40,638 nucleotides of DNA, from the IMG/VR virus record IMGVR_UViG_3300027793_000016, positions 1 through 40,638 of that record, one strand, 5' to 3'. Numbering within the stretch: position 1 is the stretch's first letter; the number at the start of each line of letters is the position of its first letter. The position numbers and the translations under genes were made by a program. This DNA comes from a virus. Below are positions 10,049 to 34,700 of the stretch, piece after piece. The notes under the pieces are model-generated. The model worked only from the letters and a program-made list of their open reading frames with translations, was not told where the DNA came from and searched no databases.

Positions 10049-12844
10049 TCAAGGAGCGCCTGAAATGTCACCCGACTGGACGTCCAGCAGCAAGGCCGTA
10101 ACGTTGAACGGGTAAGGATGGCGCGAGGTGAGGGTGATGTCTGCGGCGTCCACCCAATCAAACATTACAGGTTGCGTCTTGGTTTGGCCGGTTTTGACGA
10201 AGATCGAATCGGTGTCATAGCTCCACAGGACGAAGGATGACCGCTGAAATTCGTCCATGTCGGCATAATCAATCGCCGTTGTGTCGCTCCAATCGGCAAT
10301 CAGATAATCGCCCGAGATGGTCGGCTTGTTGACGATGTTGCCGTAAAGGGACTGGAAGAGGCGGAGAGCAACACGGACGATGCGCCACTTGCTGACCTGC
10401 GCTGTGCCTTGCTGCGTCTGAATCTCGATCCGGTTCGGCATGGCAAAGGCGGAGAACGCCACGCCTACGATGTAGAGGTCTGAATAATCGCCAGCAATGA
10501 CCGCATTCCCGCCGCTGACCGTGACTTCCTTCGGGCTGCCGTCATCGTTTAAAATCACATCGCCGTCAGGGTATAATGTGAACACCACAGAGCATCCGTT
10601 GAGGTGTGACCCAACTGCAAACGTCGTGTTGCCGGTGCCTGCATTATAGCTGCCCGTCAAAAGCTGCCATGAATCGCAGAACGTGCCCGGCCCCAGGTTA
10701 CCAGTGGTGGAATTATACGTCGGGTCAGATGACCCAAGGGCCGCCAGCATCTGTCCGCCATGGATTGATTCAAGCGAGAAAGCCCCGTTTTTCTCCATGA
10801 GAAAGATCAGCGTGTCGCCAGGACTGGCGCTGCCTCCGGCATCCGTCGAATAGATGGTGCAAACGGATTCACAATCACGATCCTTGTGGCCGAAATTGTG
10901 ACGGTGCCATGCCGTGACGTTATTCTCCCGATCATAGCTAAATCCGGCAAACTCGCCGCCTTCAAACGTGAACCATACAATCGGGTCTGGCGACTGAGTG
11001 TATGTCATTTCAACCACCCGCCCAATGTGCGCGGGGATGTGCTCTGCAAGAAGGCTCATGTCTGGCGCGGAATATCCGTCCTTTTCAAAGACGTATGCAA
11101 ACTCGCGCAGCCTGAAATCCCTGGTCAGCCACAGCAAAGCGTCACCCGCAAGAAGCGGCTGAATGTGCGTTGACCCGTAACGGCTCCAACGACGAAGCCG
11201 CAGGTTCGACGGTGACAACGCTGCGTCCTGTTCGCCGCTGTCCATCGTCCATTCCTCGCCCGTGGTGCCAATGACCATCGTGCGCTTAAACGAAGTGATC
11301 CATTCAATGTCGTTTGCCTGCGTGGCTGCAAGCGTCACGTCGATGCCGGACGTTTCGAGCGTGCCGGTCAGGAACGTGTAGAAGTCATCCGTCTGGCTGC
11401 CCCAAATGCGCATGGGTTCCGTTTCTGTCCCGGCAAACCACAAGCGTTGATCGTGGAAACAGACCGTGCGCGGGTAGCCACGGGATGCGGAGAACGCCCC
11501 TTTGCGCCAGACCGGGAAATCAATGTTGATGACTTCATTCGGGATGAGGCTGTCAACGGCCAGCCTGGGGACGCCCTTCACGACTGTCGTTGAAGTGTAG
11601 GACTCGATTTTAAACGGGATGTCCAGCTTGCCCACAGTCGGCTCAATGGTCATCGTGTCATCAGCCGCCGCCGCCGATCCGCCTGCGTCACGAATCGCCA
11701 CCAACCGATACCATCCTCCTGTGTTTGGAGCCTCAGAAGTGTAAGAAATCGTTCCTTCGTTGATGCCTTGAATCCGCCATTCCCTGATAACAGTGAAATT
11801 AATGCGGTCCAGGCTCTCTTGAAGCTGAACCGTGCTAAGGCTCGGTGCGCTGCCAGCCCCCCAATTAGTGCGAACAAGATAGCCTCCTTGAATGAAAATT
11901 GCCGCCGTCGTTGTCGTTGTTGATGCGGCACCGAATTTCTCAAAGGCAAAGCGCCCGACGTTACCAGACCCGGGCGAAAGCAGCCACGTTGAGCCCACCT
12001 CGTCAGCGTCAAATGTCGCAGACGAAGCGATGAGCCGGTAATCCTGAATGTTGATGATCTGCCAGTTTGCGGCGCTGATGGCCGGATTATTGGCTGAACT
12101 GGACGTGTGAGCGGTGTAACAAAAGTAGTTGCTGCCAAAATACTCCACCACATTACCGGCCACATAGCTGTTTCCAACGCTCCACGGTGAGAGATATGTG
12201 GCCTTATCCCACTTTGCGGCGGTAAACGACACGTCGCTGTTTGCCGTCTTGCACCGGTAAAGCTCGTTTTGATACAGGACAAACGATGACACGCCGTATG
12301 TGGTTCCAGAAACCCAATTCGACTCGTCATAAACAAGCTTCACCGTCACCGCGTCGTCAGGCGGGTCGAGCGCTGGCGCAAACTGAAAAGGCACATCTTC
12401 AATGCTCCATGTCCCATCATTGGCCCTTGTGATCCGCTGAGGCTGATAGCCGCCATGCGTCAGAAACATCACGTCATTGATCTGACAATAATGAATGTCG
12501 CGGATGTCCTCCGCCTGATAGGTTGTTGGCAGCGTGTCAACCAACGTGAACGATCCAACTGAGTAAGACCAGACCAGAATGGCGTTTTCGGCAAACCCGA
12601 GGACGAAATTCACATCAGCAGACCGGCGGAATGGAATGAGCCGAATGGTGTCATCTACGCTTACGCCGCTTGTCCCGTAGCGCGTCCCCGGCCTCTTGAA
12701 GATGCCTCCATAAGGCCGCACGATGAAGTTTTCGAGCAGTCGGCAGCCCGTGGAATATTTCTCTGAATCCGTCCGCCCGTCCATGAGCGGCGACATCTCG
12801 CCACCGTTGAACACCGCCTTGATCGTTTGAAATTGTGTCGCCAT
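10049..12844 (-). CDS. Tail tubular protein B (tail nozzle, gp12-like)
   Basis: A 931-residue beta-rich protein. The N-terminus has the family signature: FNGGEMSPLMDGRTDSEKY, then CRLLENFIVRPYGG and KRPGTRYG. Such proteins form the nozzle at the tip of short podovirus tails, below the gp11-like adaptor. It is longer than T7 gp12 (about 790 residues). The extra length appears to be inserted beta domains, for example near residues 195-260, where W/Y-rich strands recur. It starts 2 nt after the tail tubular A gene. There is no Shine-Dalgarno sequence before the ATG (CTGACCATGG). Confidence 0.85.
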   Translation of the reverse strand: MATQFQTIKAVFNGGEMSPLMDGRTDSEKYSTGCRLLENFIVRPYGGIFKRPGTRYGTSGVSVDDTIRLIPFRRSADVNFVLGFAENAILVWSYSVGSFTLVDTLPTTYQAEDIRDIHYCQINDVMFLTHGGYQPQRITRANDGTWSIEDVPFQFAPALDPPDDAVTVKLVYDESNWVSGTTYGVSSFVLYQNELYRCKTANSDVSFTAAKWDKATYLSPWSVGNSYVAGNVVEYFGSNYFCYTAHTSSSANNPAISAANWQIINIQDYRLIASSATFDADEVGSTWLLSPGSGNVGRFAFEKFGAASTTTTTAAIFIQGGYLVRTNWGAGSAPSLSTVQLQESLDRINFTVIREWRIQGINEGTISYTSEAPNTGGWYRLVAIRDAGGSAAAADDTMTIEPTVGKLDIPFKIESYTSTTVVKGVPRLAVDSLIPNEVINIDFPVWRKGAFSASRGYPRTVCFHDQRLWFAGTETEPMRIWGSQTDDFYTFLTGTLETSGIDVTLAATQANDIEWITSFKRTMVIGTTGEEWTMDSGEQDAALSPSNLRLRRWSRYGSTHIQPLLAGDALLWLTRDFRLREFAYVFEKDGYSAPDMSLLAEHIPAHIGRVVEMTYTQSPDPIVWFTFEGGEFAGFSYDRENNVTAWHRHNFGHKDRDCESVCTIYSTDAGGSASPGDTLIFLMEKNGAFSLESIHGGQMLAALGSSDPTYNSTTGNLGPGTFCDSWQLLTGSYNAGTGNTTFAVGSHLNGCSVVFTLYPDGDVILNDDGSPKEVTVSGGNAVIAGDYSDLYIVGVAFSAFAMPNRIEIQTQQGTAQVSKWRIVRVALRLFQSLYGNIVNKPTISGDYLIADWSDTTAIDYADMDEFQRSSFVLWSYDTDSIFVKTGQTKTQPVMFDWVDAADITLTSRHPYPFNVTALLLDVQSGDISGAP

Positions 12845-21604: not shown

Positions 21605-21760
21605 TCAATGCTTCCCACGCCCTCGCGGAGATTTCAAGCCCAAAAACAGCCTTACCTGTTCCTGCGCCTGCCTGGGCGGCATCGGGCGCCGTTCTCCGGC
21701 CTGGACGGCGCGGCAGTGGGCGAAAATGGCCTCTAATTTCTTCTCAGTTTGTTCATTCAT
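21605..21760 (-). CDS. 51-residue protein between helicase and small terminase
   Basis: A short frame beginning MNEQTEKKLEAIFAHCRAVQ with a Pro/Arg-rich second half (GERRPMPPRQAQEQ) and a basic end (KSPRGRGKH). Its ATG overlaps the helicase stop (ATGA), and its stop is 4 nt before the small terminase ATG. The fit into the space and the coupling support a real gene. The basic C-terminus suggests nucleic-acid binding, but no family is recognised. Confidence 0.6.
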   Translation of the reverse strand: MNEQTEKKLEAIFAHCRAVQAGERRPMPPRQAQEQVRLFLGLKSPRGRGKH

Positions 21761-23514
21761 AACGCTTTGTAAGTGTATCGAATCGGGTCAAATTTGAGCT
21801 TGAACATGCCAGTCCAGCCGGTTTCCCGCTGCTTTTCCACGATGATTTCAGTGTCGTGCATCGTTGCATCTTGTTCATTTGTAAGCTTTTCCGACTTGCG
21901 CAGCTTCTCCTTTTCGGGATTCCGACAAACCAAAAGCACATTATCAGCGTTGTTCACAAGCAGACTTGATCCCTTGATTGCATACATGCTGGGGCGCTCC
22001 ATCTGCTGCGACGGCTTCGCAAGGTGGCAAACGAGGTGAAGATGCACCTGGGTCTGCTTGGCTAAATCTTGAAGCTTGTTGCAGAAATCGCCCTGGGCCG
22101 GGTAATCCTCTTCCAGTTCCTCAATTCGCATCAGCGAGTCGATGATGAAGTGGCGGCAACCGTAGCGCCGGAAGGCATACCAAAGCATTTCCATCAGTTC
22201 GGCACGCTTCATCGAGCCGACCACATCCGCAAAAATCAGGTAATCGCCCACGCCGCGCACAAACCGCGTGATGATTTCCTCGTTCAGGTGTGGCCCGTTG
22301 AACATCGTTGCCATCTTACGCAGGGTCGTTTCAACCCGCATTTCAAGCGATGCCTCGAAAATCGGGGTCTGTTCGGCCAGGATTTGAGCCTTTAGGAAGT
22401 TGAGCATCGTCGACTTGCCAGCGCCGGTAAAGCCGCCCCAAAGCGTGACCTCACCAGGACGAAACCAAAAACCGCTGTGCGGCCACCGTTTCGCCATCCA
22501 GGGCAGCGTGAACGGCTCGTCTTTGGGCTGGATTTCAGCCACCATGCGGCCTTCAAGCTCACCAGCAGCCACCACGCGCCGAACCCTAGGCATCGCGGCT
22601 TGCGCCACCCATTCGGCGGCATCTTGGGCCGTAAATCCTGCCATCAGGCATTCGTTGGCGTCCTTTTTTGGGATCGTAACCACCTTACACCGATGGTTTC
22701 CCAGCCGGTCAATCACGGTTTTCGTGATCTTCTTGCCCGCCTCGTCCTGATCGAAAGCCAGCAGGAAGCAGTCAAACGGCGCAAGGTTGTCCCACTCGTA
22801 TTCAATCCACGCGCAGCCGGTCCCGTTCGGAATCGACAACGCCGAGATGCCCCATTGATGCCATGTCATCGCGTCAATCTGCCCCTCGGCAAGCAGAACC
22901 GTCTTTGCCTTGTAAGCGTCCTGGCTTAAAGCCTGCCATCCGAACATGGACGGTGCGCAGTCCTTGTCCTGCCAGACCTTCTTTTTCTCGCCAAGCGTGC
23001 GGTATGAGCGGTTCACAAGCTGGCCGTCGGGAGCGTAGGACGGGAACACGATTGCGCCCTTTTCCTTGCAGCCTTCAACCTTGAACGCGGCCAGAGTGTC
23101 GCGGTGCAGCCCTCGCTTGTCGCGCAGATAGGCCATTGCCACGCCCCCGGCATCCAGTTCGGCGGAGTTGATCGGCGGCGGCTTGGCGTAGCTTCGCGCC
23201 TCGTTGTAACGCGCAGGCTCCACGATGCCAAGAAACTGCTTCGCCTGCCGTATTGACTCGGCTGCCGTCACGCCTTTGGAAAGCCGCCACAGATCGAGCA
23301 AATCACCGTGATCTGCATCGTTGCTCCAATCCTTCCAGTTCCCGGCATAGGTTCCGTGAACGTGAATTTTCAGGCTCTCACCAGGATCACCGGCAATGTT
23401 CCCGCAGACCATGACGTTCCCGTGAAGCTTTGCCCCCGGTAGAAGTGTCGTCACCACGGCTTGCGCCTGATCGGCCAGCCGCTGGCTAATGTCGCTAACA
23501 GTCAAATCTACCAT
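21757..23514 (-). CDS. TOPRIM primase-helicase (gp4-like), replication fork protein
   Basis: A 585-residue protein. A TOPRIM domain is seen as LLAEGQIDAMT (about residue 208, catalytic Glu) and LLAFDQDEAGKK (about 253, DxD). The RecA-like helicase domain follows, with Walker A GGFTGAGKST (about 361), IIDSLMRIEE as Walker B, and LHLVCHLAKP. T7 gp4 has an N-terminal Cys4 zinc motif; here the first 100 residues have only one Cys, so primer synthesis may be absent or different. It probably unwinds DNA for a host polymerase. It follows the O-like initiator gene with a 7-nt overlap. Confidence 0.85.
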   Translation of the reverse strand: MVDLTVSDISQRLADQAQAVVTTLLPGAKLHGNVMVCGNIAGDPGESLKIHVHGTYAGNWKDWSNDADHGDLLDLWRLSKGVTAAESIRQAKQFLGIVEPARYNEARSYAKPPPINSAELDAGGVAMAYLRDKRGLHRDTLAAFKVEGCKEKGAIVFPSYAPDGQLVNRSYRTLGEKKKVWQDKDCAPSMFGWQALSQDAYKAKTVLLAEGQIDAMTWHQWGISALSIPNGTGCAWIEYEWDNLAPFDCFLLAFDQDEAGKKITKTVIDRLGNHRCKVVTIPKKDANECLMAGFTAQDAAEWVAQAAMPRVRRVVAAGELEGRMVAEIQPKDEPFTLPWMAKRWPHSGFWFRPGEVTLWGGFTGAGKSTMLNFLKAQILAEQTPIFEASLEMRVETTLRKMATMFNGPHLNEEIITRFVRGVGDYLIFADVVGSMKRAELMEMLWYAFRRYGCRHFIIDSLMRIEELEEDYPAQGDFCNKLQDLAKQTQVHLHLVCHLAKPSQQMERPSMYAIKGSSLLVNNADNVLLVCRNPEKEKLRKSEKLTNEQDATMHDTEIIVEKQRETGWTGMFKLKFDPIRYTYKAL

Positions 23515-24368
23515 ACGTAATCCCTTTCATGCGGTGGAATGTCCTCGGGTGCCTCGCAGAGTTCGGCCTGCTCGGCGGCTTCGCGTTCTTTCCTGGCTTT
23601 AATGTTCCGTTCCAACTTCACCCGCAGTTCTTCGGACGGGTCGATGTCGTTTTGCGGACTCGGCTCAGGCTTAACAGTCGGCATGACCGCCATCCTCTCT
23701 GATTCCGTGACACTCTCTGGAAACAGTCCAGTCCAACCATTCATCATGGACTTGTTTACGGCTGCCGTAACTGTCCATACATCATAAGTCCGGTGAAGCT
23801 GATTCACCAATTTCAGCCAGCCGGATTCAACGTAACCCTTCTTCTTCTCGCGCTTGTATTCCCACCACTCCGTCAATGGCTGCTTGTAGCTCTCCGGCAT
23901 CTCAACCGGAAACGACGGATTCACGGAAATCCGCGCCCGGTTAGATTCTTGGTTAGATTCTTGTTTACTTCTCGTTAGAGATGCCCCCCGAACCTCTGTC
24001 GGGGGAGGGGTGAACCTCCTTCGGGGGAGGGGTGAACCTCCTTCGGGGGAGGGGTGAACGTGGTTCGGGGGCGAACCTGCTTCGGGGGCGAACGACGTTC
24101 GGGGGTTTGGATGCTCAAAAGAGGACAAATGATAGCCCGTTTTAGCACCAACAAACCTCTGAATTGTAACAAGATTAGCGTTACATAATTCAGCAATAGA
24201 CCGCTGAATTGCCCGGTCAGAAAGTCCAGTCATGGACATCAGATAGCGGATTGAAGGGTTGCACTTGCCCGTTTTTTCATGGTGGCAATCCGCCAGAGCC
24301 AGCAAAACCAGCTTTTGAGTCGGCGTCACAGGTGCAAATTTGATGCGGTTAATGGCTTGGTAGCTCAT
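23508..24368 (-). CDS. Replication initiator, lambda O-like, with iterons in the gene
   Basis: A 286-residue protein. Residues 1-75 form a winged-helix-like domain (TPTQKLVLLALADCHHEKTG, MSMTGLSDRAIQRSIAELCN). This is followed by a Pro/Gly/Glu-rich repetitive linker (about 85-130) encoded by an iteron array, then a helical C-terminal half (LTEWWEYKREKKKGYVESGW) of the replication-protein type. Lambda O has the same order: a DNA-binding N-terminus, origin iterons inside the gene, and a C-terminus that recruits helicase. The helicase gene is next. The start shares one base with the upstream stop (TGATG). Confidence 0.75.
   Translation of the reverse strand: MSYQAINRIKFAPVTPTQKLVLLALADCHHEKTGKCNPSIRYLMSMTGLSDRAIQRSIAELCNANLVTIQRFVGAKTGYHLSSFEHPNPRTSFAPEAGSPPNHVHPSPEGGSPLPRRRFTPPPTEVRGASLTRSKQESNQESNRARISVNPSFPVEMPESYKQPLTEWWEYKREKKKGYVESGWLKLVNQLHRTYDVWTVTAAVNKSMMNGWTGLFPESVTESERMAVMPTVKPEPSPQNDIDPSEELRVKLERNIKARKEREAAEQAELCEAPEDIPPHERDYVW
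23939..24105. other. Probable replication origin: iterons plus tandem AT-rich 12-mers
   Basis: At 24,001-24,105 there are three 22-bp units and two 17-bp units, all carrying TTCGGGGG or its start. Each has a GAAC/GTTC dyad (for example GTTCGGGGGCGAAC). A sixth, degenerate unit precedes at 23,984. Next to them, at 23,939-23,962, the AT-rich 12-mer GGTTAGATTCTT occurs twice in tandem. Iterons beside AT-rich tandem repeats within an initiator gene is the lambda ori layout. The origin call is by analogy. Confidence 0.65.
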
Positions 24369-27121: not shown

Positions 27122-27382
27122 TTAATCTTTTTTCACCAGCAGTAGCGCCTTGTTTATCAACTCCGTCGTAAACTGTTGCCGCCCAGCCTCCAAGTTGAAG
27201 TAGTGCGCCGTGCTAATTCCCAGCCTTTTCGATATGTCTTTGCCCAGCATCCCGGTGGAATCGCGCCATTTCTTGAGCTGCCTGCCCATATCGGCGTGAA
27301 GTTTCACACGGCGGCGCACGGTCTTTTCCAGCAGGTCGTTAATTGCGCCCGCGTTCAGCAGGCTGGTTTCAAGATCAGTCAT
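27122..27382 (-). CDS. XRE-like HTH protein
   Basis: An 86-residue protein. Residues 30-75 carry a helix-turn-helix: GRQLKKWRDSTGMLGKDISK, RLGISTAHYFNLEAGRQQFT. The N-terminal part is a helix (SLLNAGAINDLLEKTVRRRV). The start overlaps the VRR-NUC stop by 8 nt. It could be a regulator of the early genes or a DNA-binding accessory. No dimerisation or repressor-cleavage domain is present, so it is not a cI-type repressor. Confidence 0.65.
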   Translation of the reverse strand: MTDLETSLLNAGAINDLLEKTVRRRVKLHADMGRQLKKWRDSTGMLGKDISKRLGISTAHYFNLEAGRQQFTTELINKALLLVKKD

Positions 27383-27752
27383 TCAGGTAATCCTCAATCG
27401 CTTGTTTCGCCTCTTCAAACCCTTTGCACACGCGGACCTGATAGCCAGCCGCCAGCAGGCGCTCAGACCACGCTTTCTGCTCGTCGGAGAGTCGTCCGCC
27501 GACGAGCCGTTTCATTTCGATGAACAGGCCGTTGTAACCTTTAGACGGCCACGCCAGGAACACGTCACAGACTCCCGGCTTCACGCCTTCGGCCTTGAGC
27601 TTCGCGGCCACGATCTTGTGTCGCCATCCGCCGTTTGGAATTGCGAACATGTTGGCAAGCTGCGGGTATTTGTAGCGGTTCATCGCCTCCCAGGTGAAAA
27701 GCTGGCGCTGTTCCTGGTGCTCCGTGGCGACGTTGTAGGTGCGTGATTTCAT
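27375..27752 (-). CDS. VRR-NUC domain nuclease
   Basis: A 125-residue single-domain nuclease of the PD-(D/E)xK superfamily. The motifs are EHQEQRQLFTWE near the start, MFAIPNGG, VKPGVCDVFLAWP with the catalytic Asp, and GLFIEMKR with the E-x-K pair. A final AGYQVRVCKGFEEAKQAI strand-helix completes the fold. Standalone VRR-NUC proteins occur in many phages and cleave branched DNA, such as junctions, during recombination or before packaging. It starts at an AAGCCATGA junction with the small lipoprotein gene. Confidence 0.85.
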   Translation of the reverse strand: MKSRTYNVATEHQEQRQLFTWEAMNRYKYPQLANMFAIPNGGWRHKIVAAKLKAEGVKPGVCDVFLAWPSKGYNGLFIEMKRLVGGRLSDEQKAWSERLLAAGYQVRVCKGFEEAKQAIEDYLND

Positions 27753-27874
27753 GGCTTGAGATGATAAAACACGTTGAGCGCCCCGCCCTCCCTATCCCAC
27801 GGCCAGCCTTCCGGCGCACGGCCCTGGCGGCAGCAGGACGAGAGGCAGGCGGCGAGGATGAGGAGGCGGATCAT
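27749..27874 (-). CDS. 41-residue lipoprotein of the early region
   Basis: A short frame beginning MIRLLILAACLSSCCRQGRA. The hydrophobic N-terminus ends in the lipobox LSSC, so cleavage and lipidation at Cys14 are likely. The mature peptide is about 28 residues with aromatic residues. It overlaps both neighbours by 4 nt (ATGA at each end). Small phage lipoproteins made early can block receptors or DNA entry of related phages (T5 Llp is known). That role here is a guess from size, signal and place. Confidence 0.6.
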   Translation of the reverse strand: MIRLLILAACLSSCCRQGRAPEGWPWDREGGALNVFYHLKP

Positions 27875-28152
27875 GGCTTCAGGAATGGTTGGAGTTTACG
27901 CAATGCGTGATGTGCGTCATCCATGGCTTCGCATTCAGCGTCACTTCCAGAAAGCGGAAGCCTCAGCATGTAGTTCAGGCATTTGCGCAACGCGGCATCT
28001 GCGTCCCTAGCAGCCTCGGCCATGCCTGCGCGGAGCTTGGCGTTCTCGTGCTCAAAAGCGCGGCAGAAATCCGCGTCAACCGGCTCGGATGGGAATGTCT
28101 TGGACCGCTTGAGCCTGCGGCGTTCGGCGTCTGTTCGTGGTGTCTTACTCAT
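27871..28152 (-). CDS. Small protein of the TPRTDA / QPFLKP family, copy 1
   Basis: A 93-residue protein. It begins MSKTPRTDAERRRLKRSKTF, has a helix AFEHENAKLRAGMAEAARDA, and ends HHALRKLQPFLKP. The protein at 28,666-28,944 begins MSDTPRTDA and ends ALAKLQPFLKP, and the last 27 nt of the two genes are identical. SxTPRTDA is a frequent start of small phage proteins of unknown function. It overlaps its neighbours by 4 nt on both sides. Confidence 0.7.
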   Translation of the reverse strand: MSKTPRTDAERRRLKRSKTFPSEPVDADFCRAFEHENAKLRAGMAEAARDADAALRKCLNYMLRLPLSGSDAECEAMDDAHHALRKLQPFLKP

Positions 28153-28418: not shown

Positions 28419-28669
28419 ACGTATTTATCCTCGGTAGAACCGCGTTTCATTGTCCCCTCATCAGGCCAATATTCTTCTCCACGGTTTTCGTCCTGCCAAA
28501 GTTTCAACGCCTCGAAGCATTCAGGGTGAACATTAGTGGCCTGAAAGTCGCCTTCAAACACCGTTGCTGTGGTGGTTTTTGGCTGTCCGACTTCAATGCG
28601 CTCGCCGCACCAGTAACAGCGGCAGGGCTTTCTGGATGACTTTACTCGGGTGACTTGAAAGAAGCTCAT
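28415..28669 (-). CDS. Small zinc-finger protein
   Basis: An 84-residue protein. Residues 15-65 contain CRCYWCGERIEVGQPK and NVHPECFEALKLW, a likely Cx2C...HxxC zinc site similar in layout to treble-clef or PARP-type fingers. The C-terminus is acidic with W and Y residues. The start at 28,669 is an ATG at an AAGCCATGA junction; upstream in-frame codons lie inside the neighbouring gene. It may bind DNA or a protein; the partner is unknown. Confidence 0.65.
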   Translation of the reverse strand: MSFFQVTRVKSSRKPCRCYWCGERIEVGQPKTTTATVFEGDFQATNVHPECFEALKLWQDENRGEEYWPDEGTMKRGSTEDKYV

Positions 28670-28944
28670 GGCTTCAGGAATGGTTGGAGTTTGGCGAGGG
28701 CAGTTGAAGCGGTTCTTAAATGCCTGCCATATGAATTCGTTTTGAGCCACTGAATCAAATCACACGCATCCCTGATAGCCTCGCGCATGGCTGCGTTCTC
28801 GCGTTCGAGGATCGCCATTTCATCGCCTCGAACAACCTCACCGTGATAAGATGAGCCGTCAAGGGTGTGCGCGTAAATAGCACAGCTAGAATCGTCTGAA
28901 TCCAGTTTCAAACGAGCAGCGTCCGTTCTCGGCGTGTCACTCAC
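28666..28944 (-). CDS. Small protein of the TPRTDA / QPFLKP family, copy 2
   Basis: A 92-residue protein with a GTG start that overlaps the upstream stop (GTGA). It starts MSDTPRTDAARLKLDSDDSS, has the helix ERENAAMREAIRDACDLIQW and ends ALAKLQPFLKP. The ends match copy 1 at 27,871-28,152, and the MREAIR...QPFL part also matches the protein at 26,272-26,637. This suggests duplication and exchange of small gene modules. The function is unknown. Confidence 0.7.
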   Translation of the reverse strand: MSDTPRTDAARLKLDSDDSSCAIYAHTLDGSSYHGEVVRGDEMAILERENAAMREAIRDACDLIQWLKTNSYGRHLRTASTALAKLQPFLKP

Positions 28945-29537
28945 TCCGCACCCCCTTTCTTGGCGGCGAGGAAGCCGCGCCATGCCGTCGCCGCATGGGC
29001 GTGCAGGTATTCGCCGTTTCCCTGCTTGGTCAGTTCAAAGTCTGGGAAACACTCCTCAAACTCTGCTTGCCACTTTTCTTCCTGGCTGGGCTCGCGGGGA
29101 AGGATGCCTTCGGGGAGGCTGAACCAGGCCAGTTCGTCGCCGTCAAAGGGTCTGTCCCAATTCCATGCAATGGCATCCTTTGCGCCACCATCCCTTGAAA
29201 AAATAGTGAAAACATTCCCTTCCTCATTCGCATCCTCCCTCGTCGGCTTCTCGCTGGGCAGGCGCAGGCGGATCATGGGCGGCGAGGGCGGGGCGGACTG
29301 GGGCGCGGCCGACTGCGTGGCGATGGGGAGGGCGTAGGTTTTGCTTTTCCTGTGGGGTTCAGGCAAACTTTCGCCCGCTCCATACCTACTTAATACCCAT
29401 CGCTCATCAAGCAAATATCGAAGCGCATCCGGTAAACAATCCAGCCTCGGATCGTCCGCGTTCACAATCTCCCAGCCGGGCGGAGGCGGCGGGATCGGGC
29501 GGGCGGATTTCTTCTTCGTGGTCGTTTTCTTCTTCAT
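28941..29537 (-). CDS. Hypothetical protein with Lys-rich start
   Basis: A 198-residue protein. The start is MKKKTTTKKKSARPIPPPPP, a basic and Pro-rich disordered region. The middle is polar (ATQSAAPQSAPPSPP), and the C-terminal half looks folded with aromatic residues (GAKDAIAWNWDRPFDGDELA, HAHAATAWRGFLAAKKGG). That half has the style of small phage proteins that carry W-rich repeats. It overlaps the exonuclease gene at a CCATGA junction. No family is recognised. Confidence 0.6.
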   Translation of the reverse strand: MKKKTTTKKKSARPIPPPPPGWEIVNADDPRLDCLPDALRYLLDERWVLSRYGAGESLPEPHRKSKTYALPIATQSAAPQSAPPSPPMIRLRLPSEKPTREDANEEGNVFTIFSRDGGAKDAIAWNWDRPFDGDELAWFSLPEGILPREPSQEEKWQAEFEECFPDFELTKQGNGEYLHAHAATAWRGFLAAKKGGAE

Positions 29538-30166
29538 GGCATTTTCAGTTTGGGTGTGACTTCGTTATAAACTTTCTGATACTGCTCGCAGAACTTGAGC
29601 AGCGTTTCCAGCATCCGGCTGGTGTAATCGTCCCAGGTGACGACGACATGATGAGGCTGCATCCCTGGAAAGTAGGACCAGAAATGCCACTGGCGGATGC
29701 CGGTCACGCACATTGAGCCGTGGACCTGCTGTTTGTAATCGTCCGGCAGACCGCCGTCGCGGACGTATTCGACATGCGTTCCAGGAGCGGGGCATTTTAT
29801 TTCGACGCCCGCGACGTATTGCCCACCGTCCACGATCAGACCATCCGGCGAGCACCCGAGAATCCCGTTGTCATGGGTCACAAATCCTACCTGCTCCACG
29901 TTCATCGCTGTGTGAGCCTGAAACGCAAGCCTCGCCTGCGGCTCCATCTCAGTCCCGCGCCTGGTTATCCAGCTTCCTTGAAACTCCGGCTCGAAATCAG
30001 GCGCGAACGTCTCGCCAATCAGCTCGTTGATGTAGCTGTCCGCCGACGTCGAAAGCTTGCACTTGGCAGCGGTCACAATCTTGGAAAAGTTTGAGGCAGT
30101 CGGCTTCCCGACCCTGATTGCCTTCCATGCCTCTGTTCCCTGCTCGATGTCCTTATGAATCGTCAC
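29534..30166 (-). CDS. YqaJ-type exonuclease (lambda exonuclease family)
   Basis: A 210-residue nuclease. The first part EQGTEAWKAIRVGKPTASNF is the family start; SWITRRGTEMEPQARLAF holds a conserved Glu; GCSPDGLI has the catalytic Asp; GVEIKCP has the ExK pair; and DYKQQVHGSMCV carries the following Gln. Such enzymes resect double-stranded ends 5' to 3' and hand the single strand to the annealing protein. The gene follows recT directly with a GTGA overlap, so the start is GTG. It lacks extra domains. Confidence 0.88.
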   Translation of the reverse strand: MTIHKDIEQGTEAWKAIRVGKPTASNFSKIVTAAKCKLSTSADSYINELIGETFAPDFEPEFQGSWITRRGTEMEPQARLAFQAHTAMNVEQVGFVTHDNGILGCSPDGLIVDGGQYVAGVEIKCPAPGTHVEYVRDGGLPDDYKQQVHGSMCVTGIRQWHFWSYFPGMQPHHVVVTWDDYTSRMLETLLKFCEQYQKVYNEVTPKLKMP

Positions 30167-31119
30167 TTACCACCCCCCTTCACAATAGCAAGAACGCCGC
30201 TCCACGCCGACAGCACGGAACGAAGCTCGTCATCCGTGCAGTCGTCGGGATTGTTCCGCACGTCGTCCAGAATGCCGTCGTCCAGGAGCTTGTGATTGAT
30301 GGCCGTCCACTCGATGCCGTCAGTGGTCAAGCGTTCCTTGACAGCTTGCAGCGCCGTCTTTTCCGGCACCTCGGCGGCAAACATGTCAGCGGGCGGGTCG
30401 ATCTTTTGAAACGGGTTGATCGGCTCGGCGCGTGCTGTGCGTTTGGCTGGCGTTACATCACGCTCAACGGCGGGAATCAGGTCATCGTCATCGCGCTCGA
30501 CGGCTTCACGGAATTCAGCCGACAGTGGCAGCCACTTGGAGAGGCGGCGGAAAGCGGTCTTTTTTGCCATCTCGTTGTAATCCGTGACCCATGGGCCAGA
30601 CGTTCCTGCGCGGCTGCGTTTGCGAATGGATTCAATCTCATCCTTCGACATGACAGCGCAGAAAACAGGGCCATCCTTCGTGACCGCCATAGCATAGGCC
30701 GCATACATAGCGCCGCGTGGCTTCTTCCAGTCGATCTCATGGCGTGTCACCTCGCCCATGTTGTATTCGAAAACGTCACCCTCGCAGACGACATCCGCGT
30801 GCAGCTTGGCAATGATGCCGGAGCGCATGGCAAGTTCGGCCAGCCCCTTCCAGTCAATGACCAGCGTGCATTGGTCCTTGTAGGGGATGAGATGGGCGCG
30901 GCGTCCGTCAGGTTCCAGGCCGAACGCGGACAGGTCGAGAAGGCAGCGCATAAGGCTTTCCTTCGTGCATTCAGCCAGTTTGGGAGTGCGGGTCAATGCC
31001 GTGATGGCAATGCGGGTGAAGCGCTCAGGGCTGAGATGTTTCGGCAGAGCCTTGGCGAACTGCTCCTGCATCTTGGCGTCGGTGAGCGTCTGTTTGATGG
31101 TGGCGAGTTGATTTGACAT
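30163..31119 (-). CDS. recT: RecT-family single-strand annealing protein
   Basis: A 318-residue protein. It starts MSNQLATIKQTLTDAKMQEQ, with ERFTRIAITALTRTPKLAEC, SLMRCLLDLSAFGLEPDGRR, AHLIPYKDQCTLVIDWKGLA and GPWVTDYNEMAKKTAFRRLS, all core RecT motifs. The C-terminal 100 residues are variable and charged. Together with the exonuclease it forms a two-gene recombination module that can repair or concatenate phage DNA. It may supply the concatemers needed for packaging. Confidence 0.92.
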   Translation of the reverse strand: MSNQLATIKQTLTDAKMQEQFAKALPKHLSPERFTRIAITALTRTPKLAECTKESLMRCLLDLSAFGLEPDGRRAHLIPYKDQCTLVIDWKGLAELAMRSGIIAKLHADVVCEGDVFEYNMGEVTRHEIDWKKPRGAMYAAYAMAVTKDGPVFCAVMSKDEIESIRKRSRAGTSGPWVTDYNEMAKKTAFRRLSKWLPLSAEFREAVERDDDDLIPAVERDVTPAKRTARAEPINPFQKIDPPADMFAAEVPEKTALQAVKERLTTDGIEWTAINHKLLDDGILDDVRNNPDDCTDDELRSVLSAWSGVLAIVKGGGK

Positions 31120-32304: not shown

Positions 32305-34494
32305 ATGGACTACGATTCATTCATCAAAAACAAGACACGCCGTGCCGAAAGCCACGGATTCGATCCTCTCTCAATCACCGCCCCTCTTTTCCCGTGGCAG
32401 CGCCATGTTGTTGAATGGGCGATCAAGAAAGGCCGCGCCGCCCTCTTTGAGGATTGCGGACTCGGCAAGACTGCGCAGCAACTGGAATGGGCCTCGCAAG
32501 TCTGCCGTCACACTGGCGGCAGCGTGCTTATTCTGACGCCTCTCGCGGTGGCGCACCAGACATCCCATGAGGCTGACAAGTTCGGCCTTGTCGCCAAGGT
32601 TGCGGAATCCGCCGATGACATCGACGCGCCCGGCATCTGGATCACGAATTACGAGAAGCTAGAGAAATTCGACTGCTCGCAATTCGTCGGCGTCGTGCTC
32701 GATGAATCCAGCATTTTGAAAAACTTCACCGGCAAGATGCGCAAGCTGCTGACCGAGACTTTCAGCGAGACTCCATATCGCCTTTGCTGCACGGCCACGC
32801 CGTCGCCAAACGATTACACCGAGTTCGGGCAGCACGCCGACTTCCTGGGCGTCTGCACGCCAGCGCAAATGCTCGCCACGTTCTTCATCAATGACACGTT
32901 CAACACTGGAGACTGGCGCTTGAAAAAGCATGCCGAGTCTGAATTTTGGGCATGGCTGGCGTCCTGGGCGGCATGCGTGTCGAAGCCTTCCGACCTTGAA
33001 TTTGATGATGCCGGATACATTCTGCCGTCGCTCAACCTGCAAACGATTATCGTCCAGGTTGATGATTCAGAGGGCGCTCAGGAAGGCGAGCTTTTCAGGC
33101 ACGCCACACTTTCAGCAACCACGATGCACCAGGAAATGCGCGTGACCGCACCTCAGCGTGTCGCGCATGTTGCCGAGCTTGTGAACAATTCCAGCGAGCC
33201 GTGGATCGTCTGGTGCAACACGAACGACGAGAGCGAGCAACTTGCGGCGTCCATTCCTGATGCCGTGGAAGTCAAGGGCAGCGATACCGCAAAGCAGAAG
33301 GAAGAGCGCATTGACGCGTTCACCGAGGGGCGCGCCCGCGTCATCGTCACCAAGGCTGGAATTGCAGGTTACGGCCTCAACTGGCAGCATTGCAGGAACG
33401 TCGCCTTTGTTGGGCTGTCTTACTCTTTCGAGGACTTTTACCAGGCATTGCGCCGGTCTTACCGCTTTGGCCAGACTCAGGAGGTCAATGCCTACATTGT
33501 CCAGGCGTCCACGGAGGGCGCTATCCTCAAAACCATCCAGCGTAAAATCGAACAGCACAAGGAAATGCAGGAGCGCATGAAGCTGGCGGCGTCCGCATTT
33601 CAATCACAGCAAAAGAAACTTACCATGAAAACAGACATCACCACGGCTTGCGGAGAGGGTTGGACGATCCACCACGGCGATTGTGTCAGGGTCGCACGTC
33701 AAATTGAGGATGAATCCGTTGATTTCAGCGTGTTCAGTCCGCCATTTGCGGACTTGTTCACCTACTCGGATGACCTTCAAGACATGGGGAACTGCTCCGA
33801 CATGAGCGAGTTCACGAAACACTTTGATCTTCTCATCGCGGAGATTGCCCGCATCCTCGTTCCTGGCCGTGAGGTCGCCGTTCATTGCGTCGATCTGCTT
33901 TCCACCAAGTGGAAGCATGGAAAAATCGAGTTCCAGGATTTCAGCGGCGAGATCATCCGCGCATTCTGGAAACATGGGTTTCTTTTCCATTCCCGCATCA
34001 CCATCTGGAAATCTCCCGTCACCGAGATGCAGCGCACCAAGGCGCACGGGCTGCTTTACAAGACGCTCACCGCTGACAGCACGGATTCCCGCGTCGGGTG
34101 TCCAGACTATCTGCTGGTGTTCCGCAAGCCGGGCGACAATCCCAAGCCTGTGACCAAGGACCGCAGCCGTTACCCTGTGGACTGGTGGCAAGAAGTCGCA
34201 TCGCCAGTCTGGATGAGTGTCGATCAAGGCCGTGTGCTTAACAAGGACGGTGCCCGCGATCATTGCGATGAGAAGCACATCTGCCCGTTGCAACTGGACG
34301 TGATCGAACGCGCCATCGAGCTTTGGACGAATCCCGGCGATCTGGTTTATTCGCCGTTCACCGGCATCGGGTCAGAAGGCTACGGCTCGTTGACCCTGGA
34401 TCGTCGGTTCGTTGGAAGCGAACTCAAGGAGTCGTATTTCAAGCAGGCTTGCCTGAACTTGAAAAATGCCAAGTCTCAACTCAGCCTGTTCTAG
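32305..34494 (+). CDS. SNF2-like helicase fused to N4/N6-type DNA methyltransferase
   Basis: A 729-residue fusion and the only plus-strand gene. The N-terminal 430 residues are an SF2/SNF2-like ATPase: Walker A (FEDCGLGKTAQQ), motif II VVLDESS (DESS, not DEAH), motif III CTATPSPND, and motif VI QALRRSYRFGQTQ. From about residue 440 a beta-class methyltransferase follows: GDCVRVARQIEDESVDFSVF, SPPF (motif IV, near 477), and SPFTGIGSEG (motif I, near 684) with GSELKESYFKQA. Such enzymes modify the exocyclic N of adenine or cytosine. No nuclease domain is seen, so an anti-restriction modification role is likely but unproven. ATG at 32,305 lacks a Shine-Dalgarno sequence; an in-frame TTG at 32,257 would add 16 unlike residues. 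Confidence 0.88.
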   Translation: MDYDSFIKNKTRRAESHGFDPLSITAPLFPWQRHVVEWAIKKGRAALFEDCGLGKTAQQLEWASQVCRHTGGSVLILTPLAVAHQTSHEADKFGLVAKVAESADDIDAPGIWITNYEKLEKFDCSQFVGVVLDESSILKNFTGKMRKLLTETFSETPYRLCCTATPSPNDYTEFGQHADFLGVCTPAQMLATFFINDTFNTGDWRLKKHAESEFWAWLASWAACVSKPSDLEFDDAGYILPSLNLQTIIVQVDDSEGAQEGELFRHATLSATTMHQEMRVTAPQRVAHVAELVNNSSEPWIVWCNTNDESEQLAASIPDAVEVKGSDTAKQKEERIDAFTEGRARVIVTKAGIAGYGLNWQHCRNVAFVGLSYSFEDFYQALRRSYRFGQTQEVNAYIVQASTEGAILKTIQRKIEQHKEMQERMKLAASAFQSQQKKLTMKTDITTACGEGWTIHHGDCVRVARQIEDESVDFSVFSPPFADLFTYSDDLQDMGNCSDMSEFTKHFDLLIAEIARILVPGREVAVHCVDLLSTKWKHGKIEFQDFSGEIIRAFWKHGFLFHSRITIWKSPVTEMQRTKAHGLLYKTLTADSTDSRVGCPDYLLVFRKPGDNPKPVTKDRSRYPVDWWQEVASPVWMSVDQGRVLNKDGARDHCDEKHICPLQLDVIERAIELWTNPGDLVYSPFTGIGSEGYGSLTLDRRFVGSELKESYFKQACLNLKNAKSQLSLF

Positions 34495-34700
34495 TCTGAT
34501 GCGTGAAGCCTGCGCCACCGTGCAAGGAACTGAGTCAACGGCTCGTCTCCATGCCCGTTCATGGCGCAGGCGCAATTCTTCGCCTCGCAGCAGATGAACG
34601 TGCACCCAGGTTCGTGCTGGACCTGGGGCTTCCCGTCCTTCCTGCGGCGGCACTTGGCCGTTGCGTTGAAGTGATCCGCTATGCGCTGCCAATCGGTCAT
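34491..34700 (-). CDS. Small Cys-rich hypothetical protein
   Basis: A 69-residue protein with MTDWQRIADHFNATAKCRRR, GCTFICCEAKNCACAMNGHG and a helical end (LTQFLARWRRLHASD). Five Cys and two His cluster in the centre, suggesting metal binding or disulfides. Its TAG stop overlaps the TAG stop of the plus-strand gene at a shared CTAG. It overlaps the upstream gene by 4 nt. No family is recognised. Confidence 0.6.
   Translation of the reverse strand: MTDWQRIADHFNATAKCRRRKDGKPQVQHEPGCTFICCEAKNCACAMNGHGDEPLTQFLARWRRLHASD

Follow-up and report, generated by a model that had tools for sequence, protein, structure and literature searches.

A phage SNF2-type helicase-DNA methyltransferase fusion without a nuclease domain: architecture, relatives and plausible role

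What a phage might gain from a DNA motor joined to a DNA methyltransferase in one polypeptide, with no nuclease to cleave what is left unmodified, is the question raised by a single gene in the 40.6-kb virus record analysed here (the window). Coupling of SWI2/SNF2 ATPases to methyltransferases in phages, either fused or encoded by adjacent genes, has already been described, and such methylase-helicase dyads have been proposed to protect injected DNA (PMC5512222). The reading that we favour, at slightly better than even confidence, is that the fusion is an enzyme of the replication/recombination module that would translocate on phage DNA and methylate it, likely as protection against host restriction.

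Architecture of the fusion protein

The gene and its features, all on the plus strand, are as follows.

32305..34494, plus strand: complete helicase-methyltransferase fusion gene, 729 amino acids (open reading frame and family matches)
32392..33594, plus strand: SNF2-type superfamily II ATPase/translocase, residues ~30-430 (Pfam SNF2-rel_dom and Helicase_C; Foldseek)
32449..32472, plus strand: motif I / Walker A, EDCGLGKT (sequence; conservation)
32695..32715, plus strand: motif II, VLDESSI, core LDESS (sequence; conservation)
33625..33627, plus strand: in-frame ATG where the two domains join, residue 441 (matches the position at which free methyltransferase genes begin in split relatives)
33637..34479, plus strand: N6_N4 DNA methyltransferase domain in beta order, residues ~445-725 (Pfam PF01555; TTHA0409 match)
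33736..33747, plus strand: methyltransferase motif IV, SPPF, residues 478-481 (sequence; conservation)
34015..34269, plus strand: putative target-recognition region, residues 571-655 (placed by its location; conservation unusually high)
34357..34380, plus strand: methyltransferase motif I, FTGIGSEG, AdoMet binding, residues 685-692 (sequence; conservation)

The protein is encoded intact, with the helicase half preceding the methyltransferase half. The ATG at 32305 is the likely start codon, because relatives align from residue 1-3 and an upstream extension to a TTG is unconserved. Pfam detects SNF2-rel_dom, Helicase_C and N6_N4_Mtase, and the PHROG_16 'DNA helicase' profile covers residues 23-725 in a single stretch (profile 268-915; E 7.4e-70). 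This significant match over both domains places the protein in PHROG_16; PHROG_62 and PHROG_67 give mainly single-half matches. The AlphaFold2 model is of moderate quality (pLDDT 70, pTM 0.59), and Foldseek searches with it matched SNF2 remodellers, Rad54 and the methyltransferase TTHA0409. An earlier note on this DNA had described complete SNF2-like motifs followed by a methyltransferase and no nuclease. The reading frame, motifs and domain order are all real, and Pfam and profile searches found no nuclease domain in the 729-residue protein.

In the ATPase half, motifs III (CTATPSP), V (GYGLNWQ) and VI (QALRRSYRFGQ) are, like motifs I and II, intact and kept in near relatives, a complete set for an SNF2/SF2 ATPase. 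The methyltransferase half scores 50.1 bits against PF01555 (cut-off 26.7), and its motif IV precedes motif I, the order of beta-class amino methyltransferases; SPPF and FTGIGSEG, noted previously in that order, are both intact and conserved among near relatives. An SPPF sequence at motif IV favours N4-cytosine methylation. The best solved-structure matches after TTHA0409, however, are adenine enzymes; N4-cytosine is a tentative preference on the strength of the motif, with N6-adenine possible.

A widespread family in fused and split forms

The family is widespread, occurring in hundreds of deposited phages and in many known from metagenomes. A relative is encoded by 373 deposited phages, all below 60% identity, and in 304 of these it covers at least 80% of the fusion protein in one place; identity to the window protein reaches at most about 49%. 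Among the closest named examples, Synechococcus phage S-CBS3 gp40 (fused) and S-LBS1 A50/A49 (split) share 48-49% identity with it over the full length and in the same order, S-LBS1 differing in having two genes with a 4-nt overlap. The 80 best IMG/VR loci, at 74-100% identity, are intact, full-length, fused and uninterrupted. By its profile and homology matches the protein is a member of a phage family that is already recognised, and is not unusual. Where measurable (unsaturated pairs), dN/dS is about 0.01-0.08, the putative target region included, and purifying selection on the fusion is strong. Loci of family members are assigned to Firmicutes, Proteobacteria, Bacteroidota and others, and include cyanophages and flavophages. 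Among bacterial genome bins, the best matches come from Verrucomicrobiota (75 and 74%), which suggests a host in this phylum for the window virus. Literature searches found no characterised helicase-methyltransferase fusion of the PHROG_16 type, giving instead the DarB-type paper (PMC5512222), a paper on EVE/DCD domains and an unrelated mention of archaeal HMA defence. For the members examined, records and literature yielded no enzymatic activity, modified base, target or restriction phenotype.

The homology search for fused versus split forms that the earlier note had proposed recovered both. A further set of 86 loci from phages and genomes comprises 48 fused and 32 split forms and 6 with one half only, some of these cut by contig ends. 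Split relatives are adjacent, usually overlapping genes, mostly with the helicase ahead of the methyltransferase; several pairs have a 4-nt start/stop overlap, and three are in reverse order. Tree distances of the helicase and methyltransferase are correlated (r=0.96 overall; among 28 split pairs in the 40-65% identity group r=0.84, a value reached in 0 of 2000 permutations). Helicase and methyltransferase are thus inherited together and co-evolve even as separate genes.

An ATG noted previously near 33,624 as a potential internal start lies at 33,625, at the domain junction. Free methyltransferases typically begin at a methionine just ahead of a GDC-like motif that corresponds to residue 441 of the fusion. 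Because the ATG sits where the free enzyme begins in split relatives, the junction has probably kept the old methyltransferase start codon, either as a relic or as an optional start. A methionine occupies this position in 63 of 81 near sequences but is missing from the other 18, and the residues just upstream are variable. Synonymous conservation around residues 427-443 (z ~3, overlapping windows) is among the highest in the gene and is equalled around residue 582. A working internal start that releases a free methyltransferase is possible. A Shine-Dalgarno core precedes the ATG in only 2 of 40 distinct relatives, which says nothing about its use because the 4-nt core lies upstream of only 2 of the 22 gene starts checked in the window; given this low count in the window, the phage or its host may use initiation independent of the Shine-Dalgarno sequence. 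Synonymous divergence between the window gene and that of a close phage (L004) is 0.044 in the helicase half but rises to 0.182 in the methyltransferase half, a difference suggestive of recombination within the gene between closely related phages.

Genomic setting

The window also encodes a terminase, head-tail connector, endolysin, RecT, YqaJ, O-like initiator and primase/helicase; every one of these genes is on the minus strand. The replication and recombination genes nearest to the question are listed below.

30163..31119, minus strand: RecT annealing protein, recombination module (Pfam RecT; PHROG_148)
29534..30166, minus strand: YqaJ/RecE-like exonuclease (Pfam/PHROG matches)
27375..27752, minus strand: VRR-NUC / Holliday junction resolvase-like protein (family match)
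23508..24368, minus strand: replication initiation O-like protein (family match)
21757..23514, minus strand: DNA primase/DnaB-like helicase (PHROG match)

The fusion gene forms a divergent unit that converges on the next operon, as the earlier note had described, and its stop codon overlaps that of a convergent minus-strand open reading frame (34491-34700). It is the only plus-strand gene as far as every gene with a family match or a coding GC-by-position pattern is concerned; very small plus-strand genes are possible. Scans for sigma-70 promoters and terminators gave nothing clearly above shuffled sequences. This lone position is a local arrangement of the window's lineage and no family trait, because in the near group replication/recombination markers share the strand of the fusion; the exceptions are L002, L003 and L004, which are the window's own lineage, L010, and one marker in L036.

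Elsewhere the usual co-directional neighbours are annealing, exonuclease, initiator and DnaB genes; L007, for example, has the order Bet, exonuclease, fusion, VRR-NUC, initiator and DnaB. Among relatives with at least 9 kb of sequence, blastp with a small marker set found a replication/recombination marker within the flank examined in 37 of 44 near relatives, 17 of 28 at 40-65% identity and 21 of 41 more distant ones, these being raw counts without a control region rather than a measure of enrichment.

Several other features of these genomes were recorded. An exact 27-bp direct repeat (27871-27897 and 28666-28692, 795 bp apart) lies among small unknown genes of the window, and a 931-residue protein carrying a CBM_5_12 carbohydrate-binding module is encoded at 10049-12844. 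In Synechococcus phage S-LBS1, another superfamily II helicase gene (L082:5262-6647) lies past the split helicase/methyltransferase pair and is followed by one unknown gene and then a VRR-NUC gene.

Plausible role and alternatives

Comparison with known systems helps to delimit what the fusion might do. Phage P1 DarB and the methylase-helicase dyad of polyvalent proteins share with it a SWI2/SNF2 ATPase coupled to a DNA methyltransferase, with no nuclease (PMC5512222). In DarB, which is a virion protein, the methyltransferase comes first and is EcoKI/TaqI-like (PMC5512222), whereas the window fusion has an N-terminal helicase and a PF01555 methyltransferase in beta order, and identity with DarB was rejected on domain order and methyltransferase type. 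Coupling of a superfamily II motor to a methyltransferase is also shared with Type III Mod/Res and Type ISP enzymes, the systems of which the earlier note was reminded. The coupling without cleavage stands, but the likeness is a mechanistic analogy only, since the single 729-residue polypeptide has no Res or Mrr nuclease. Membership of Type III was rejected because the protein has no nuclease domain and VRR-NUC is no constant partner, and membership of Type ISP because the helicase starts at about residue 25 with no N-terminal Mrr-like nuclease match. The plasmid methyltransferases M.EcoGIX and M.BceJIII, replication-associated promiscuous enzymes that protect a plasmid from restriction, offer a functional analogy; they differ in having no helicase and in methylating N6-adenine on single strands (PMC7736820).

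The preferred mechanism would begin with the SNF2-type double-stranded DNA motor loading on phage DNA. The motor would then translocate with ATP and so deliver the methyltransferase, fused in cis, along the DNA. A methyl group would be added, probably at a short or relaxed target, and the modification would shield phage DNA, both during replication and in the progeny, from host restriction. Of the roles considered, protection of phage DNA is the most plausible. Weighing against it are the position of the fusion outside the minus-strand replication operon in the window lineage and the moderate model (pLDDT 70).

The breadth of the target is suggested by the putative target-recognition region, which was placed solely by its position between motifs VIII and I. 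Conservation within the 40-65% identity group is 57% for residues 571-600 and 44% for residues 609-655; the remaining methyltransferase segments range from 34% to 69%, and the helicase from 39% to 53%. A short, broad or relaxed conserved target appears to fit better than host-matched specificity, because across hosts of several phyla this region varies about as little as the catalytic core does. Its conservation is compatible with any conserved role and does not single out antirestriction.

The first alternative, clearly less probable than protection, is led by the helicase: a UvsW/Rad54-like motor for branch migration or fork remodelling in recombination-dependent replication, while the methyltransferase would tag phage DNA so that phage nucleases and recombinases find the correct molecules. 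The RecT/Bet, exonuclease, resolvase, initiator and DnaB neighbours suit such a role, as does Rad54 among the Foldseek matches, and the conserved target region argues for a host-independent function. However, SNF2 fold matches are generic, and the methyltransferase is at least as conserved as the helicase and would therefore be no dispensable accessory. There is also no consistent methylation-sensing partner, VRR-NUC being matched in 4 of 18 records that carry the fusion or a split pair, some of which may be fragments. A related and rather unlikely possibility is that the methyl mark made by the fusion during replication is conserved and independent of the host, and would steer the phage's own recombination and replication machinery by distinguishing self from host DNA, antirestriction then being a secondary gain.

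Protection of DNA by copying the specificity of a host restriction system is common among orphan phage methyltransferases. That the fusion matches one particular host system in this way is nonetheless unlikely, since divergence of the target region would be predicted and the region is instead conserved across very different phyla, with dN/dS never above 0.05 among the pairs examined. It is very improbable that the fusion forms a complete restriction-modification-like system in which VRR-NUC would do the cleaving: a VRR-NUC gene is present in the window and lies directly after the fusion in L007 and L008, but 14 of the 18 records have no such match, and VRR-NUC was rejected as an obligatory partner. 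Exactly one N6_N4 methyltransferase match is found in each of the 18. Least probable of all is a role in packaging for the methyl mark, as the earlier note had suggested, or for the protein itself: L018 has a terminase and portal directly after the fusion, but a terminase was found near only 3 of 44 near relatives, replication/recombination genes being the usual neighbours.

With its split and fused forms and its conserved target region, the family is well suited to the study of motor-driven methylation in the absence of cleavage. It also bears on the question of whether broad protective methylation linked to replication is carried by phages.

A distant, mostly fused clade below 38% identity (L117:7989-10544, L118:8001-10505, L134:8001-10544 and similar) has altered motifs, with TSIPF at motif IV and DPFGGLMTVP or similar at motif I, and 22 sequences have GLHKT where the Walker A GLGKT is expected. 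In L117, a Pseudomonas locus, Pfam detects the methyltransferase only, and a phosphoadenosine phosphosulfate reductase-like gene (L117:10541-11338) overlaps the end of the fusion. The altered motifs possibly reflect changed chemistry or loss of the ATPase in this clade.
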